From positions 124,001-188,000 of the forward strand of contig NZ_FTMS01000003.1 of the NCBI RefSeq assembly GCF_900156105.1: a stretch of DNA of 64,000 nucleotides, given 5' to 3'. Within the stretch, counting starts at the first letter, position 1; each line of letters begins with the position of its first letter. Source of the stretch: Alkalispirochaeta americana. GTDB lineage: Bacteria > Spirochaetota > Spirochaetia > DSM-27196 > Alkalispirochaetaceae. The notes beneath the pieces are model-generated. The model ran no database searches, was not told the DNA's origin, and saw only the letters and a program-made list of their open reading frames with translations. A program made the position numbers and the translations under genes. Below, one piece after another: positions 7,389-47,598 of the stretch.

Positions 7389-8783
7389 ATGACAACAGCA
7401 GCGGTGGATCACACACGATACCTGGTGATAGACATCGGCACCTCCAGCCTGAAGGCGGCCGTGGTAACAACCTCCGGGGAGCTCCTCTCCTTTATCCGGC
7501 GGCCCGTCATGGGCCCCTCCGATTCAGCATCGGCCTTCGACGGCCACCGCTGGCTTGAAGCGTTGAGGGAAACCGTTCCCACCGTGGCAGGCCACTACAG
7601 GATCGACGCTGTGGTGATCAGCGGAAACGGCCCCACCGTGGTTGCTGTAGACGAGGAGGGGCGCATTCTGGGGCAGCCCCTGCTCTGGCTGGACCCCCGG
7701 GCTGAGGTCCTGCCAGAGAGCGTCTCGTTCTATCTTCCAAAAATCCTCTGGTTTCACCGCAACGACCCCCACGCCGATCAGGTTCGGTGGTACCTTCCCT
7801 TCCCGGAGTATCTCCTCTTTTATCTCACCGGTGAGGCCGTGGCCGTAACCCCGGGCGAGGAGTTCTCCCCCTACATCTGGAATACCGACGACGCCTCGGC
7901 AGCGGGGCTGGATACCCGAAAGCTGCCGCCCTTCGTTCAGGTGGGTTCCGTGGCAGGTCAGGTGGCGCGTCACCGCAGTGTCGAGCTGGGGCTCCCCCCG
8001 GGAACCCCCGTGGTGGCGGCGGGGTCGGACTTCCTCATGAGCCTGATCGGTACCAACTGCCTTCAGCCGGGCATGACCTGCGATCGGGCCGGAACATCCG
8101 AAGGAATCAACTATTGTTCGGCCCACCCCCGCCAGGCCGAGCACCTGCGGACCCTGCCGCATGTTATCCCGGGGCTGTACAACGTGGCGGGCATCCTCTC
8201 CTCCACGGGGCTGCTCTTCGAATGGTTTCGCGAGATCAGCGGTCAGAGGGGTCGTGATTACGGTGACATGATGCTGGAAATTCTGCGATTGTCCGAGGAT
8301 GCTGACCTGCCCTGGTTTTTCCCCTCCCTCCAGCGGCCCGGGGCGTGGCAGTTTCGACGGGGCATGTTTATCGGCCTGGGAGCGCAGCACAGCCGGGCCG
8401 AGATGGGCCGGGCCGTGGTCCTCTCCATCGGCTTTGCCGTGCGGGAGGCCTTGGAGTTGCTCGAGGGGGCGGGATGCTCCGTGACGGAGCTTGTAGCATG
8501 CGGGGGCCAGGCTCGAAACGGGCTGTGGACCCAAATGAAGGCCGATATGACAGGAGTCCCCGTGAGCGTTCCCGCCGTGGCCGACGCTGAATTGATTGGA
8601 AACCTCTGCTGTGGCATGGTAGCTCTGGGAGAAGCCTCCTCCCTGCAAGCGGCCGCCGCCAGGGCAGTTCACATCGTCCACACCTATCATCCCGATCCTG
8701 CAGGGGCCCTTCGCTACGCCGAGCAGCATCACCGGTATCAGGCTCGTTTCCGGCGGTTTCAGGAAGCCCTGGAAGGGTGCTGA
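7389..8783 (+). CDS. FGGY-family carbohydrate kinase
   Basis: Cytoplasmic ATP-dependent sugar or polyol kinase of the FGGY family (xylulokinase/gluconate kinase-like). It has 464 residues. The N-terminal phosphate-1 motif is LVIDIGTSSLKAAVV, the central region DRAGTSEGINY resembles the conserved Gly-Thr-Ser region, and VACGGQARNGLWTQMKADMTGVPV near the C-terminus is the adenosine-binding signature region. ATG 7389 is preferred over GTG 7362, which would lie between the promoter elements. It is divergent from the importer operon, so it may phosphorylate the sugar moiety of the imported compound; that link is an inference. The exact substrate cannot be read from sequence. Confidence 0.88.
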   Translation: MTTAAVDHTRYLVIDIGTSSLKAAVVTTSGELLSFIRRPVMGPSDSASAFDGHRWLEALRETVPTVAGHYRIDAVVISGNGPTVVAVDEEGRILGQPLLWLDPRAEVLPESVSFYLPKILWFHRNDPHADQVRWYLPFPEYLLFYLTGEAVAVTPGEEFSPYIWNTDDASAAGLDTRKLPPFVQVGSVAGQVARHRSVELGLPPGTPVVAAGSDFLMSLIGTNCLQPGMTCDRAGTSEGINYCSAHPRQAEHLRTLPHVIPGLYNVAGILSSTGLLFEWFREISGQRGRDYGDMMLEILRLSEDADLPWFFPSLQRPGAWQFRRGMFIGLGAQHSRAEMGRAVVLSIGFAVREALELLEGAGCSVTELVACGGQARNGLWTQMKADMTGVPVSVPAVADAELIGNLCCGMVALGEASSLQAAAARAVHIVHTYHPDPAGALRYAEQHHRYQARFRRFQEALEGC

Positions 8784-8786
8784 TAA

Positions 8787-8854
8787 GGAGTTCCTCCGCA
8801 GGCTGGGGAACTCCGGCACGCTCCCGATGGCTGCCCTGTCAGGCAGCCATCGGG
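8787..8854. terminator. Two tandem hairpins between convergent genes
   Basis: GGAGTTCC/GGAACTCC (8787-8814) is followed by a perfect 13-bp inverted repeat CCCGATGGCTGCC with a six-base loop (8823-8854). They fill the gap between the kinase stop and the P-II gene stop and probably act as a bidirectional terminator, although T-tracts are poor on both sides. Confidence 0.6.
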
Positions 8855-8861
8855 CTGTTAA

Positions 8862-9203
8862 TCAGCCGATCGCGTCGTTCCCCGTCTCCCCGGTGCGAAT
8901 GCGGATCACCTCCGCCAGGGGGACAACAAAGATCTTTCCGTCGCCTATCGTGTCCGTTCTCGCTCCACGAAGGATCGCCTCAATGGTGACATCGGTAAAC
9001 TCGTCGTTCACAGCGATCTCCAGGCGAACCTTCTTCAGAAGATTTACCTCGATATCGATCCCCCGGTATACTTCGTGGTAGCCCTTCTGCTGCCCCGCTC
9101 CCAGGGCGTTGGTGATCGAAAGTTTGAAAACCTTCGCCTTGTAGAGCTCTTCCTTCACGTTATTCAGTCGGTGGGGCTGTATGTAGGCAATAATCAGTTT
9201 CAT
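8862..9203 (-). CDS. glnB: Nitrogen regulatory P-II protein
   Basis: Small trimeric cytoplasmic signal protein (113 residues) that senses 2-oxoglutarate and ATP/ADP and controls the adjacent ammonium transporter. The T-loop is [14 protein letters not shown], the ATP-binding region has IGDGKIFV with Lys90, and the C-terminal EVIRIRTGE carries Arg101/Arg103. Tyr46 is present, but the position of the uridylylated Tyr51 is Ile (codon 9051-9053), so classical GlnD control is unlikely. It lies 24 bases after amt in the same operon, which suggests a GlnK-type role. Confidence 0.93.
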
Positions 9204-9227
9204 GGCGTTCTGCTCCTTTCTAAGCGA

Positions 9228-10547
9228 TCACACGTTGGAGAAAATCTGGAAACCTGCGTAGGATTCAGTCCCGTGCTCGGAGATATCGAGACCCAGAAGT
9301 TCATCTTCCGGCGATACTCGCAGGAGGCCCCAGGTCTTTAGCAGGTAGAAAAGGATGAACGATGTGCTGAGAACCCACAAAAGGACAGCGCCGATACCGA
9401 TCAGCTGAACCCCTATCTGACCTCCCCGGGTGAGACCGCTGCCGATCAGTTCGAGGTCGCCGAAGAGCCCCACCGCCAGGGTTCCCCAGATTCCTGTGAT
9501 ACCGTGGACACTGATCGCACCCACAGGATCGTCCACATGGAGAACCTTATCGATAATTTCAACGGAGATCACCACAATTACTCCGCCGAGGGCCCCCACC
9601 AGGAGTGATAATCCGGGGCTTATCACCCAGGTTCCAGCGGTGATCGCCACGAGCCCCGCCAACGCTCCGTTCAGGGACATGGAGGGATCGGGTTTCCCGA
9701 ACCACTTCCAGCTGGTAACCATGGCGGCAATCGCGCCTGCCGAGGCAGCCAGGGTAGTGGTTGTTGCCACGTAGGCGATATCCAGATCCGTTCCGGAAAG
9801 GGTGCTTCCCGCGTTGAAACCGTACCATCCAAACCACAGGATAAAGACTCCCAGTGCTGCCAGGGGCATGTTGTGGCCCTGAATTGCCTTCACTGTCACC
9901 ACATCTCCAACCTTGACGTATTTTCCTCGCCGGGCTCCTATCATGATGGCTCCGGCCAGGGCTGCCCAGGCACCTACAGAGTGGACCACGGTAGATCCTG
10001 CAAAATCATGGAATCCCATCCCGGCGAGCCAGCCCGCATCGGACCATATCCAGTGGCCGCTGACAGGGTAGATAAGGCCTGACACAACCGCCGAGTAGAG
10101 GAGATAGCCCGAATACTTGGTTCGTTCTGCCATGGCTCCGCTCACAATGGTTGCTGCCGTGGCGGCAAAGACTACCTGGAAGAACCAGTCGCGAAAGTCT
10201 GCCGAATCTGCTCCGGCGAGAAAGAACTGATCCGTTCCCACCAGGCCGGCGGCGCTGGCGCCGTACATGATGGCCCAGCCCACGGCAAAATACGCGATAG
10301 CCCCCATGGAGAAATCCATCAGATTCTTCATGATGATGTTCCCGGCGTTTTTGGCGCGGGTGAGGCCGGTTTCGACCATGGCAAAACCGGCTTGCATCAG
10401 AAAGACCAGCGCTCCTGCCAGGGTGAGCCATATCATGTCAAAGGCCTGGCTGTAGAGTTCCAGTACCGCTTCCACATCTTGCGCTGCTACGTGTGTCAGG
10501 GAGATCGCAGTCATCAAGAGAACCAGCAAAAAAGTCCGTCGTCCCAT
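9228..10547 (-). CDS. amt: Ammonium transporter
   Basis: Trimeric inner-membrane ammonium channel (Amt/MEP/Rh family), 439 residues. An N-terminal signal-like segment ending at VAAQ is followed by eleven hydrophobic segments. Landmarks are MQAGFAMVETGLTRAKN, the DFAGSTVVHSVGAWAALAG signature, HNMPLAALGVFILWFGWYGFN, and HGITGIWGTLAVGLFG. ATG 10547 is chosen because GAGGAGG lies upstream of it; an extension to 10583 would start at the predicted transcription start. It forms an operon with the P-II gene and sits behind a sigma54 promoter. Confidence 0.96.
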   Translation of the reverse strand: MGRRTFLLVLLMTAISLTHVAAQDVEAVLELYSQAFDMIWLTLAGALVFLMQAGFAMVETGLTRAKNAGNIIMKNLMDFSMGAIAYFAVGWAIMYGASAAGLVGTDQFFLAGADSADFRDWFFQVVFAATAATIVSGAMAERTKYSGYLLYSAVVSGLIYPVSGHWIWSDAGWLAGMGFHDFAGSTVVHSVGAWAALAGAIMIGARRGKYVKVGDVVTVKAIQGHNMPLAALGVFILWFGWYGFNAGSTLSGTDLDIAYVATTTTLAASAGAIAAMVTSWKWFGKPDPSMSLNGALAGLVAITAGTWVISPGLSLLVGALGGVIVVISVEIIDKVLHVDDPVGAISVHGITGIWGTLAVGLFGDLELIGSGLTRGGQIGVQLIGIGAVLLWVLSTSFILFYLLKTWGLLRVSPEDELLGLDISEHGTESYAGFQIFSNV

Positions 10548-42784: not shown

Positions 42785-44029
42785 TCAGGCCGACCGGGCG
42801 GCCCCATTCAGGTTAAACGGTTCCAGGACTCGTTCCAGGACTCCCTGCATGTGCGATATGGCCACCCCGTAATTTGTCACGCCCACTCCGGCCAGGCGGG
42901 CATCTTCCAGGCGGGCCAGCATCTGTGGCCGGGTAATCATGCACCCCCCGCAATGGATGATCAGATCGTAGCAATCAAGCTCTTCGGGGAAGGTTCCGCC
43001 CGTTACTTCCAGGTGATGCTCTTTCCCGGTGTAGGCCCGTATCCATTTGGGCAGCTTCACCCGGCCGATGTCGTCGCACTGAACCTGGTGGCTGCAGCTC
43101 TCGGTGATAAGGATTCGTGAGCCTGCGGGAAGACGATCCAGAAGATAGACGCTCTCCACAAAAGCGGGGAGGTCTCCCTTGAGACGGGAAAAGAGGATCG
43201 AGAAGGTGGTGAGGGGCACCTCGGGAGGGAGTAGCGCTGCTGCCCGGTCCACCACCTGGGAATCGGTTATCGCCAGATCGGGGGGGTGCTTCAGCTGGTC
43301 CAGCACCCAGGGCAGCTCCTGATCCTTCACCACCAGTGTTGCAGCGTTTCCGTCGAGGACCTCGCGGATCGTCTGGACCTGAGGCAGAATGAGGCGTCCC
43401 GCCGGAGCCTCCAGATCGATGGGGACGATCAGAAGCACCAGGCGAGCAGGCCCGATCAGCCCCTCCAGAAGCTGCCGGCCCCCTCGCTTCTCCTCTTTTT
43501 GCCGGGCAGATTCAAGAATTCGGGCCAGCTCATCCCGGAGCTCCCATACTCCCTCGCCCGAAGCTGAGGAAACTACGGCGGGCGGGCGGCCGGTGATCCG
43601 CTGCAACTCCCGAAGAAACTCCTGTCCGGGTCTGGTGGTGTCGCTGTGGGTCACCACCGCCAGGGTAGTCCGCTGGCTCGCGCAGGATACGAGATGGTCC
43701 AGATCTTCCGTGTCCCAGCGGTCGGGGTGTATCGTGTAGAGCGTCAGATCGCTCCCTGCCACGGCGGTACGGGTTTTTTTGTTCCTGGCAGACCCCAGGG
43801 CACCTCGATCGTCCAGACCGGCCGTATCCACATACACCACGGGTCCAAAGGGCAGAAGTTCCGACGAGCGGAGTACGGGATCCGTTGTGGTTCCTCGGGT
43901 GGGCGAGACAATAGCCAGATCCTGACCCACCAGGGCGTTCATCAGAGCCGATTTTCCGGCGTTGCACTTTCCTGCCAGGACAATGTGGGGCCGCATGGCC
44001 CTGGGAGTTCCCTGTGGTCCTCTGCTCAT
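42785..44029 (-). CDS. hydF: [FeFe]-hydrogenase maturation GTPase HydF
   Basis: Scaffold that receives the [2Fe] subcluster from HydE/HydG and transfers it to the hydrogenase. It has 414 residues. The N-terminal GTPase has GKCNAGKSALMNAL, GTTTDP, YVDTAGLDD and THSD. The C-terminal part carries the cluster-binding motif Cys-x-His (ESCSHQVQC) and CGGCM. The start ATG overlaps the TM1266-type gene stop by four bases. No hydA is visible in the window. Confidence 0.95.
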   Translation of the reverse strand: MSRGPQGTPRAMRPHIVLAGKCNAGKSALMNALVGQDLAIVSPTRGTTTDPVLRSSELLPFGPVVYVDTAGLDDRGALGSARNKKTRTAVAGSDLTLYTIHPDRWDTEDLDHLVSCASQRTTLAVVTHSDTTRPGQEFLRELQRITGRPPAVVSSASGEGVWELRDELARILESARQKEEKRGGRQLLEGLIGPARLVLLIVPIDLEAPAGRLILPQVQTIREVLDGNAATLVVKDQELPWVLDQLKHPPDLAITDSQVVDRAAALLPPEVPLTTFSILFSRLKGDLPAFVESVYLLDRLPAGSRILITESCSHQVQCDDIGRVKLPKWIRAYTGKEHHLEVTGGTFPEELDCYDLIIHCGGCMITRPQMLARLEDARLAGVGVTNYGVAISHMQGVLERVLEPFNLNGAARSA

Positions 44030-44325
44030 GGGGTTTCCTCGGTGAGGGCCGTGCCGGGAAGACTCTGAAGCCCCGTTTTCACCGTCACACCGGGCAACGC
44101 TCCAAGCTTTCCGCTGAGAGAGCCCATCTCGTCGGTGGTGGCGCGAACGATGAGGGTTATGATCGAGATTGATCCTTCCTCAAGGTTGGGAAGACCCAGA
44201 CGTCCAACAATGCAGTCGGCATGAGCCGAAAGGATCTGGTTTATCCGTGCTCCCAGGCGGTGGCGGTTTTCTACGATAATGCCCACAAAGCCGTAGCGCT
44301 TGTTTTGTTCAGCCCTTGTTTCCAT
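44026..44325 (-). CDS. TM1266-family iron-only hydrogenase system regulator
   Basis: Small ACT-like protein of 99 residues. KRYGFVGIIVENRHRLGARINQIL and the LPNLEEGSISIITLIVRATTDEMGSLSGKLGAL region match the family called iron-only hydrogenase system regulator (TM1266), usually next to hyd maturation genes. ATG 44325 is preceded by GGAGGGAG; the frame to 44454 is a shadow of the upstream gene. It likely senses a small molecule, but no DNA-binding domain is visible. Confidence 0.85.
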   Translation of the reverse strand: METRAEQNKRYGFVGIIVENRHRLGARINQILSAHADCIVGRLGLPNLEEGSISIITLIVRATTDEMGSLSGKLGALPGVTVKTGLQSLPGTALTEETP

Positions 44326-44911
44326 GGTGGCTCCCTCCTGTTCGGGATGGTTCAGGTGATGTCTGATCCTTGAGTGATTCATCTTCATTGGAGGCTCCGG
44401 ATTCAGCAGGAGATTCTTCCCGCAGAACCTGATAATCCCGGGTTTGCACGCCAAGGAGAGCTGCTACTGCAGCGGTCCAGGTCGAGACGTTCCGGGGATC
44501 TTCAACCAAAGGAGACGAGTGGGGAAGAGGATAGTGGTTGCCCAGGACACCTGTAGCGTAGGCGTCAAAGAGATCGCCTTCTCTCCGGAGCGGCAACCCG
44601 GCAATCTCTTCCAGGTGGTTTAGAAAATTCTCCGCCTCTGGTGGCGTCTTCCGGGGCTGCCAGAACGAGCAGTGACCCACTGGAAAGGGAGTATCGGGCG
44701 AGTAGAGGAGATCCTGAAGAAACTCAAGTCCCGCCGAATCCCCCCCGGGAGGAACCCGGTAAAAGAGAATCGGTTTGGCAGGATCAAGGAACCGGAGTAT
44801 TACCCCGGGGATCGTCTCCGAGGGCTCCCTGGCTGCGGGTATCCTCTCCATCATCACTAAATCACCTGTTTCCAGAGAGGGGGCAAAGAGGGTGAACTCG
44901 AGCTCAGTCAT
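44309..44911 (-). CDS. Unknown protein within the hydrogenase maturation operon
   Basis: A 200-residue protein that I do not recognise. It starts MTELEFTLFAPSLETGDLVM (ATG 44911 with AAGGAG upstream), contains VGHCSFWQPRKTPPEAENFL and ends in a Ser/Glu/Pro-rich tail after about residue 165. There is no signal peptide and no clear catalytic motif; a His/Cys pair (GHCSFW) is the most distinctive feature. It overlaps hydE by eight bases and the TM1266-type gene by 17, so it is part of the operon and probably serves hydrogenase assembly or regulation. Confidence 0.7.
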   Translation of the reverse strand: MTELEFTLFAPSLETGDLVMMERIPAAREPSETIPGVILRFLDPAKPILFYRVPPGGDSAGLEFLQDLLYSPDTPFPVGHCSFWQPRKTPPEAENFLNHLEEIAGLPLRREGDLFDAYATGVLGNHYPLPHSSPLVEDPRNVSTWTAAVAALLGVQTRDYQVLREESPAESGASNEDESLKDQTSPEPSRTGGSHHGNKG

Positions 44912-46034
44912 GGAATACTCCTTCCTTCCGCCGGGCGTGGGGGGCGTCTCCCCAGGAATGATACGACACAGGGCGCCGGGCCCAGGCCGCACGGCGGGGA
45001 GTACAGGAAATGCACTCCCGAGCCGTCTCCTCCACGCAGGGTTTTCCCTGGTAGAGCTGGTAGGCCCTGCGCTGACCACCGGGAGTAACGATTGGCATTA
45101 GTACGTTGGCGCCAAAGGCGAGTCCCTGTTCCCGTCCTGTCGGTGAAAGGGCCTGCAGGGCCGTGGCGGCAGCGATATTCACATCCCTCAAAACGAGTCG
45201 TGTGGCGGCGATCATCCGCAGGGAGAGGCGCAATCGTTCTGCACCGCTGGTGTCGGGCAAAAGTCCCTGGCGGTGCATCTCCTCCCGGGCGCTGCCTGCA
45301 GCCTCAATATAGGGCCCCATGCCGATCATGTCGGCATCGATCTCCCGGAAAAACATGATATCCCGGGCCAGATCCCGTGAGGTTTGGCCCGGAATGCCGA
45401 TCATCACGCCCGTTCCAACCTGGAACCCTTCGGCCCTGAGATCTTCCAGTGCCTGGAGTCGCCGCTCCAGGGGCTGTTCCGGGGGGTGGAGTCGGGCAAA
45501 GAGGCGAGGGTTGCTGGTCTCGACCCGCAGGAGATAGCGGTGTGCTCCGGCGTCAAAAAAACGCCGGTAGGTCTCCCGGGTTTGCTCTCCCACGGAGAGG
45601 GTAATTCCCAGCCCCCGGGGAAGATCGGGAGTGACCGTTTCCTCCTTTATCCGTCGCAACACCCCTTCGACAAAATCGATAAAAGGTCGGTCCCGGCGTT
45701 CTCCTGCCTGGAGGGTCATGGAGCCGTATCCCTCCTGCAGGCAGAGACGAGCCCCTTCCAGGATTGCCTCCTCGGAAAGATCGAACCGGACAAGAGGGGC
45801 TCCCTGGTCATCGCTCCTGCTGGAGCGACGAATCCCGCAGTAGTAGCAGTCGCTGGTGCACCGGTTGGAAAACTCCAGGAGCCCCCGAAGGCGGACCTCT
45901 TCTCCCACCTCATCGGCCATGACCTGCCGTGCCCGGGCTGCCAGGGCGGCGTCTCCTCCCGGCCAGCGGCCCAGAAGAAGTTCTTCCAGCTCCTCCAGGG
46001 AGAAGGTTCCCCGGGGAACAATCGTATCAGACAT
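44904..46034 (-). CDS. hydE: [FeFe]-hydrogenase maturation radical SAM protein HydE
   Basis: Radical SAM enzyme needed to build the H-cluster from the HydG product. It has 376 residues, with the CX3CX2C cluster motif in FSNRCTSDCYYCGIR near residue 60, ITLSVGEQTRETYRRFFDAG, YLLRVETSNPRLF and GTGVMIGIPGQTSRDLA. The extra C-terminal Cys pattern (CVEETARECISC) is also seen in some HydE proteins. The start overlaps hydG by eight bases. Confidence 0.94.
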   Translation of the reverse strand: MSDTIVPRGTFSLEELEELLLGRWPGGDAALAARARQVMADEVGEEVRLRGLLEFSNRCTSDCYYCGIRRSSRSDDQGAPLVRFDLSEEAILEGARLCLQEGYGSMTLQAGERRDRPFIDFVEGVLRRIKEETVTPDLPRGLGITLSVGEQTRETYRRFFDAGAHRYLLRVETSNPRLFARLHPPEQPLERRLQALEDLRAEGFQVGTGVMIGIPGQTSRDLARDIMFFREIDADMIGMGPYIEAAGSAREEMHRQGLLPDTSGAERLRLSLRMIAATRLVLRDVNIAAATALQALSPTGREQGLAFGANVLMPIVTPGGQRRAYQLYQGKPCVEETARECISCTPRRAAWARRPVSYHSWGDAPHARRKEGVFHD

Positions 46035-47598
46035 AGAGATCCCTCGCGCCTTCGCTGGTTCGCTTGTAATAGTCCAGAAACTTTGTGTGCAACGCAGGCG
46101 TCCTTTGTTTTGCTCCCGCCAGCTCCTGCTGGATCAATGCCTCGCCGATCTTTCTCGTTTCGGGGGTAGCGAAATCGTCGAGCCACTCCCGGAAGGTTAT
46201 AATCGCGTTGAGTTTACAGTAGTTTCCCTCGCTGCAGCTCCGCAGAAGACGCATGATTCGCTCTCCCCGGCGGCCGATCCGGTATCCGGCGGTGCAGAAG
46301 CTGCTGATGAACCCCAGGGAGGCCAGATCCCGAACCAGCTCCTCCACCGTGCGGGGGTCCCCCAGGAGAAACTGCTGTTCTTCTTCTTTTTGGCTGTAGG
46401 CGTCCCGGCCGGCCTGATCTCCCTTTGCAGGCTGCTCCGAGGGGATCGCCCCGAGGTCATTCTGGTGGCCGGAGCTGTAGGCTCCCAACCCTATTCTGGT
46501 GGAGGCATCCATCTGGGTTATGCCCCGAAGCACCGCCTGATTCCGGATGTCCCGGGTTTCCCGGGCGGTACAGATGAGCCCTGTGTAGGGCACGGCCAGG
46601 CGAAGGACGGTGATGATCTTCAGAAAATCGGCATCGCTCACGGCGTAGCGGCTTGAGCGAGTCAGGGGCGCGTTATGAGCCGGTTCAAGACGGGGAAAAC
46701 TGATGGTGTGCGCGCCGATCCCGCAGTCGGTGCTTTCCAGGGCCCGGACATGGCTCAGGAGCCCCATAACCTCGAACTTCCAGTCGTAGAGGCCGAAAAG
46801 CACGCCCAGCCCCACATCGTCCACCTGGGCATCCTGCGCCCGGTGCATCGCGTAGAGCCTCCAGCGGTAGTCTGCCTTGAGACTCTTCGTTCCGTGAACG
46901 CGGCGGTAGGTGTCGCGGTGGTAGGACTCCTGAAAGACCTGGTACGTTCCCAGGCCGACCTCGCGGAGCCGTTTCAGGGAGGTGATATCCAGAGGCGCGC
47001 AGTTCACGTTTACCCGGCGGATATTGGCGTGGCCCCGACGAGTAGGGACGCGCACACCATAGACGGCGTTGATGCTTTCCTCAAGATAGTCGATGTCGGT
47101 GAGGGGGTGCTCGCCGTAGACCACGACCAACCGCTTGTGGCCGAAAGACCCCGCCAGGGCCGATGCCTCGCGGCGAATCTCTTCCATGGTCAGGTGCCGC
47201 CGGTGCATCTCGGTGTTTTCCCGGCGAAAGCCGCAGTAGCTGCAGCTGTTCACGCAGTGGTTTGCCATATAGAGGGGCGCAAAGGTGACGATCCGGTTGT
47301 CGTAGACCTTGAGTTTTATCTCCAGCCCGGTCTGGGCCATCTCTTCCAGCATCTCCGGGTCTTCCACGTTCAGAAGAACCGCCGTTTCCCGGGGTGTCAG
47401 GGTCTGAATAGCCCGGGACTTGTCCAGGATATCTCGCACGGTCCGGGGATCGGGGTTTCGCGTCTCTTCCAGGGCACGAAAGATCGCCTGCTCATCAATA
47501 AAGTCCTGGCCCTGGCTGTCCAGGTATTTCTCTACTTCTTGGGGTTTTACAATGCTCCGGGACCACTGGAGGTCGCGGGCTGGGGCTGAGATCGCCAT
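46027..47598 (-). CDS. hydG: [FeFe]-hydrogenase maturation radical SAM protein HydG, auxiliary-cluster Cys missing
   Basis: Tyrosine lyase that makes the CO and CN ligands of the H-cluster. It has 523 residues with the radical SAM motif NHCVNSCSYCGFR. The C-terminal motif that normally binds the auxiliary [4Fe-5S] cluster is CX2CX22C; here it reads C435-T-A-G438 and C461, so the middle Cys is Gly, and an extra Cys lies at 455 (LLRSCSEGNYC). The residue after C461 is also changed (CKLNA for CHPNA). ATG 47598 has GAGAGGA upstream. It is first in the operon. Everything else looks intact. Confidence 0.93.
   Translation of the reverse strand: MAISAPARDLQWSRSIVKPQEVEKYLDSQGQDFIDEQAIFRALEETRNPDPRTVRDILDKSRAIQTLTPRETAVLLNVEDPEMLEEMAQTGLEIKLKVYDNRIVTFAPLYMANHCVNSCSYCGFRRENTEMHRRHLTMEEIRREASALAGSFGHKRLVVVYGEHPLTDIDYLEESINAVYGVRVPTRRGHANIRRVNVNCAPLDITSLKRLREVGLGTYQVFQESYHRDTYRRVHGTKSLKADYRWRLYAMHRAQDAQVDDVGLGVLFGLYDWKFEVMGLLSHVRALESTDCGIGAHTISFPRLEPAHNAPLTRSSRYAVSDADFLKIITVLRLAVPYTGLICTARETRDIRNQAVLRGITQMDASTRIGLGAYSSGHQNDLGAIPSEQPAKGDQAGRDAYSQKEEEQQFLLGDPRTVEELVRDLASLGFISSFCTAGYRIGRRGERIMRLLRSCSEGNYCKLNAIITFREWLDDFATPETRKIGEALIQQELAGAKQRTPALHTKFLDYYKRTSEGARDLYV

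Follow-up and report, generated by a model that had tools for sequence, protein, structure and literature searches.

The hydG locus

The window (the whole 64,000-nucleotide stretch of DNA analyzed here) carries on its minus strand a hydG gene in an intact frame, running from an ATG at 47598 to a stop at 46027, together with its operon members hydE, an unnamed small open reading frame (ORF), the gene for a TM1266-family regulator and hydF (Table 1). The product passes the curated cut-off of TIGR03955, the NCBIfam equivalog model for HydG, and has the radical-SAM motif by which members of the HydG family are recognized. The top structure match of its AlphaFold model (pLDDT 90.4) is Thermoanaerobacter italicus HydG (4wcx; Z 55.0, rmsd 1.3 Å, 453 residues aligned), and the predicted fold is thus that of HydG. 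By alignment, H283 corresponds to the histidine that serves T. italicus HydG as dangler-iron ligand. Both hydE and hydF are intact, as a preliminary description of this DNA had said of the other maturation genes, and the association of the gene with hydE, hydF and HydA (see below) is likewise that of a hydG.

Table 1. Features of the hydG operon and of its HydG product (residue numbering throughout counts Met as 1)
Feature	Coordinates	Strand	Basis or remarks
hydG	46027..47598	minus	523 aa with Met; TIGR03955 411.6 bits, cut-off 312.15
Radical-SAM CX3CX2C (C115, C119, C122)	47233..47256	minus	HydG alignments
H283	46750..46752	minus	His in 212/212 HydGs
Cys343	46570-46572		
Asp364	46507-46509		Position of S318 in TcThiH
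C435, first auxiliary-cluster cysteine	TGC 46296-46294	minus	Cys in 212/212 HydGs
G438, site of canonical middle cysteine	GGA 46287-46285	minus	Codon and alignments
I441, replacement-cysteine site	ATC 46278-46276	minus	Cys in 113/122 Gly438 HydGs
C455, proposed third ligand	TGC 46236-46234	minus	Cys in 8/8 of window clade; Gly in 110/114 other Gly438 HydGs
E457, rival ligand or dangler-site residue	GAG 46230-46228	minus	Glu in 121/122 Gly438, 0/90 Cys438 HydGs
C461, last auxiliary-cluster cysteine	TGT 46218-46216	minus	Cys in 212/212 HydGs
hydE	44904..46034	minus	TIGR03956 271.7 bits; overlaps hydG end; C-terminal CX7CX2C
Unnamed ORF	44312-44911		200 aa, between hydE and TM1266 gene
TM1266-family hydrogenase-system regulator	44026..44454	minus	
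hydF	42785..44029	minus	TIGR03918 459.5 bits

The unnamed ORF, for which a Pfam search returned no match, has counterparts of 32-36% identity in three relatives (L036-L038). In L036 an ammonia-lyase/fumarase-type gene (8373-9773) lies between the TM1266 gene and hydF, and the corresponding interval is similarly widened in L037 and L038. The window operon has no such gene; two homologues of 36-37% identity lie elsewhere in its own genome. One source (PMC11736057) contains statements connecting ammonia-lyases with H-cluster ligand synthesis.

Relatives compared

A first search for relatives matched 68 of 198 genomes, from which only the loci of the best matches were used (L001, L007-L035). A genome collection was then scanned with the peptides SFCTAGYR and TFRE[WY]LDD (80 of 556 relatives kept), and a further pattern search required CTAGYR, plus GR and G just after position 441. 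Since these sets were selected wholly or partly on CTAGYR peptides, the frequency of Gly438 within them is uninformative; positions 441 and 455 were left free by the patterns (bar the GR and G just after 441). From searches with the HydG family model we took the best-scoring places and 35 more picked by hand, mostly lower scoring. Repeat loci (L001, L116-L122, L130-L134), a broken copy from genome G008 (L123, L144) and four duplicates were left out by hand, and a further 14 duplicates and two short rows (L159, L188) are absent from the final set of 212 HydGs. Trees were built by a quick method on subsets (57 HydGs with 4 ThiH; 69 HydGs) after removal of residues 435-461.

Gly438 marks a large clade of HydGs with a displaced cysteine

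The cluster motif of the window HydG reads C435-T-A-G438-Y-R-I441-G ... S454-C455-S-E457-G-N-Y-C461. The minus-strand codons bear out what the preliminary description had read here, namely the spacing C435-T-A-G438-X22-C461 with a GGA codon at G438 and an additional cysteine at 455. That description had missed position 441, three residues on, where Gly438 HydGs usually have their replacement cysteine and where the window HydG has none either. The protein therefore belongs neither to the canonical CX2CX22C subgroup (Cys at 435, 438 and 461), on account of Gly438, nor by motif to the CX5CX19C subgroup (Cys at 435, 441 and 461), on account of Ile441, though the tree nests it within the latter clade.

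In a first alignment of 30 sequences, Gly438 was present in the window HydG and 13 relatives and Cys438 in 16; the final set comprises 122 Gly438 and 90 Cys438 HydGs. Among the former, 113 have Cys441 (three of them also Cys455), eight combine Ile441 with Cys455, and one (L244) has neither, so that Cys441 or Cys455 is found in 121 of 122. The ordinary motif of a Gly438 HydG is accordingly CX5CX19C, formed by C435, C441 and C461. Ninety rows were added by searching two further phyla for the HydG family and were not picked for Gly438; they hold 17 Gly438 sequences, of which 16 have C441. The genome-collection scan found Gly438 HydGs under record titles such as Omnitrophota, Planctomycetota, Verrucomicrobia, Fibrobacter and WOR-3, and many of them adjoin hydF, hydE and TM1266 genes. 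Glu457, Ile448, Leu452 and Leu463 have shifted jointly with Gly438, and the whole cluster domain has thus been remodelled.

Gly438 had been taken for an anomaly in itself. It instead marks a large, multi-phylum clade whose alternative motif is in print: the Clostridium survey PMC9431212 names CX5CX19C for the Clostridium autoethanogenum HydG CLAU_RS03260, cites Duffus 2012 on variability of the HydG motif, and, having itself reported hydG as missing from several species, raises atypical motifs as one possible reason. Nor do Gly438 and Cys455 simply co-vary, as had been suggested for alignment, since most Gly438 HydGs have C441 and not C455.

The chance that Gly438 stems from a misread or misassembled codon at 46285-46287 is negligible. 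Nothing in favor of such an error was found among the 212 HydGs compared, 122 of which have the same glycine. Near relatives with the normal CTAC had been named as a possible refutation; the nearest relative, L007, from the same genus and 92% identical, also has Gly438. Because G438, I441 and C455 all recur in L007 and in six more distinct relatives, a base error is in practice ruled out.

The window HydG belongs to a nested Ile441/Cys455 branch

In the 57-HydG tree, rooted on ThiH and made without the motif residues, the Gly438 HydGs form one clade (support 97), whose sister group consists of three Cys438 HydGs. The Ile441/Cys455 sequences, eight of them distinct, make up a single branch (support 98) nested within the C441 clade. 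Seven belong to the order of the window, L015 belongs to a different order within its class, and by group code the eight span six genera. Beside the three radical-SAM cysteines, only C435, C455 and C461 are invariant cysteines in this window clade. Cys343 occurs in seven of its eight members and in 0/97 and 0/17 others.

States with two cysteines exist in the sample: C438 with C441 in L019, one of the three sister HydGs, and C441 with C455 in L011-L013, which form a branch separate from the window clade. Among the sequences in the trees, none with a double-cysteine state falls on the line leading to the window clade itself. The simplest order of states would be C438, then C438+C441, then C441, then C455. 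As the exchange of C441 for C455 is a single event on the tree, its presence in eight of eight members does not amount to eight independent tests. L244 lies outside the Gly438 clade in the wider tree of 69 HydGs and represents a separate change.

One genome of the same class, G050, holds both the Gly438 HydG L013 and a canonical HydG, L148; the two could be used as each other's natural control.

The window HydG is very probably functional

An impaired HydG was one of two readings offered in the preliminary description. In its full form this reading has HydG impaired or decaying and the organism making no H-cluster, and the lack of a cysteine at both 438 and 441, the sites of the middle cysteine elsewhere, would suit it. 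We regard it as highly improbable. A dN/dS of 0.083 between the window HydG and L007 (NG86, 522 codons) indicates purifying selection, and the same residue states recur in eight distinct sequences from six genera. Each of the eight window-clade genomes has one intact HydG and a group A HydA above the cut-off. The search for hydA that had been proposed yielded, in the genome of the window itself, two group A HydAs with H-cluster motifs (TSCSPGW or TSCCPSW, MPCTAKK, GGC/GGG), and no second hydG was found in that assembly, which is 95.6% complete. A truly broken copy looks different: genome G008 has, beside its intact L016, a second hydG (L144, 6434-7892) with frame breaks and with C435 lost. Together, purifying selection, the presence in 8/8 genomes of a single intact HydG along with group A HydA, the H-cluster motifs and the intact hydE and hydF make impairment unlikely, and, as judged from these comparisons, the window HydG very probably works.

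Candidate ligands of the auxiliary cluster

In canonical HydG, tyrosine is split at the radical-SAM cluster, and the Fe(CO)2CN synthon is put together at an auxiliary cluster in the C-terminal part, which carries a dangler iron. In line with this, PMC6212873 contains a description of the C-terminal cluster as bearing the dangler iron and as the site of Fe(CO)2CN formation. The relatives suggest that the middle cysteine of the cluster motif was relocated rather than lost, and of the readings considered here we think it probable that the enzyme works and that the third ligand of its auxiliary cluster has changed place two times, from C438 to C441 and from there to C455. Tyrosine would still be cleaved at the radical-SAM cluster, and the synthon would still be built at the C-terminal auxiliary cluster with its dangler iron, with the auxiliary cubane held by C435, C455 and C461; each move would leave the cluster with one open iron site. 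Because Cys455 stands in the window clade in place of the lost C441, the motif becomes CX19CX5C.

That C455 is the third sulfur ligand is what we infer from its presence in 8/8 clade members, its replacement of a near-invariant glycine and its occurrence where C441 is lost; the variant ligation first proposed for this protein, perhaps through C455, is thereby the best-supported reading. Four HydG-like paralogues (L250-L253), the only ones of the 90 Cys438 HydGs with Cys455, carry cysteines at 435, 438, 455 and 461, which hints that residue 455 lies close to the cluster. C455 could also be incidental, as other cysteines are common in this region of C441-type HydGs (Cys447 in 56/113, Cys454 in 12/113; Cys447 in 0/90 Cys438 HydGs), and it need not be a ligand, since three of the 113 C441-type HydGs (L011-L013) have it beside C441. 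L244, with neither C441 nor C455, is a counter-example to the rule that a Gly438 HydG keeps a third cysteine; it is the one exception among the 17 Gly438 sequences noted above, and genome G681 encodes it as a second HydG beside L177, which has the canonical CTAC.

The main rival is the carboxylate of Glu457, fixed across the Gly438 clade, which might be the third ligand if C455 is incidental. This residue lies four positions before C461, and its distribution (Table 1) follows Gly438 closely. However, E457 is present alongside C441 in C441-type HydGs and so leaves the disappearance of C441 unexplained, and C455 occurs exactly where C441 has been lost; we think this assignment unlikely. Equally hard to favor, and quite unlikely in our estimate, is an auxiliary cluster that still works with two protein cysteines plus water or the substrate cysteine, or as a smaller cluster. 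It would fit the observation that, of the canonical ligand sites, the first and the last alone (C435 and C461) are invariably cysteine across the 212 sequences. Against it, a third cysteine is kept in 121 of 122 Gly438 HydGs, and a mutational analysis mentioned in PMC9431212 showed the C-terminal cluster motif to be essential.

Altered residues in the tyrosine pocket

The tyrosine-phenolate crown is termed strictly conserved between ThiH and HydG in a passage of PMC9046217. At the equivalents of TcThiH T299, S318, S321 and R306, the window HydG departs from this crown with A345, D364 and T367 and keeps only R352. Asp364 is found in 105/105 Gly438 HydGs and the three sister Cys438 HydGs, with Ser in 14/14 others of that set; in the wider set it also occurs in several further Cys438 HydGs. 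Tyrosine may be held in this altered pocket in a different protonation state.

A broader, speculative possibility, to which we assign a rather low probability, is that the ligand shell of the synthon-building cluster is evolvable: as the third cysteine passed from 438 to 441 to 455, Glu457, fixed at the first step, would have joined the dangler-iron site, so that in one branch Fe(CO)2CN would be made at a chemically different auxiliary center, and the tyrosine pocket at the opposite end of the barrel would have been rebuilt (Asp364).

Comparison with known HydGs

The mechanism of HydG was worked out on CX2CX22C enzymes. The large clade whose third cysteine has shifted and the subclade in which it has apparently shifted again offer natural variants with which to probe what dangler binding and synthon release require of the cluster environment. 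They also illustrate that searches with a fixed motif can overlook real HydGs. CX5CX19C is already known from the text of PMC9431212 cited above; no mention of CX19CX5C for HydG was found in the literature searched (mainly titles and the openings of abstracts), and it may be in print elsewhere.

Compared with canonical CX2CX22C HydG (T. italicus 4WCX, Carboxydothermus hydrogenoformans 4RTB), the window HydG is alike in fold, radical-SAM motif, C435, C461, H283 and operon role; it differs in having Gly438 for the middle cysteine, Cys455 for Gly and Glu457 for Ile, and in its tyrosine-pocket residues. The paralogues L250-L253 resemble it in their cysteines at 435, 455 and 461, but they keep C438 and are distant from it, with HMM scores that lie close to the HydG cut-off or under it (three of the four under); all have Leu364. 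By motif alone, the C. autoethanogenum CX5CX19C enzyme belongs with the C441-type Gly438 HydGs, and it is within the clade of such HydGs that the tree nests the window HydG, but with Ile441 and Cys455, that is, with CX19CX5C.
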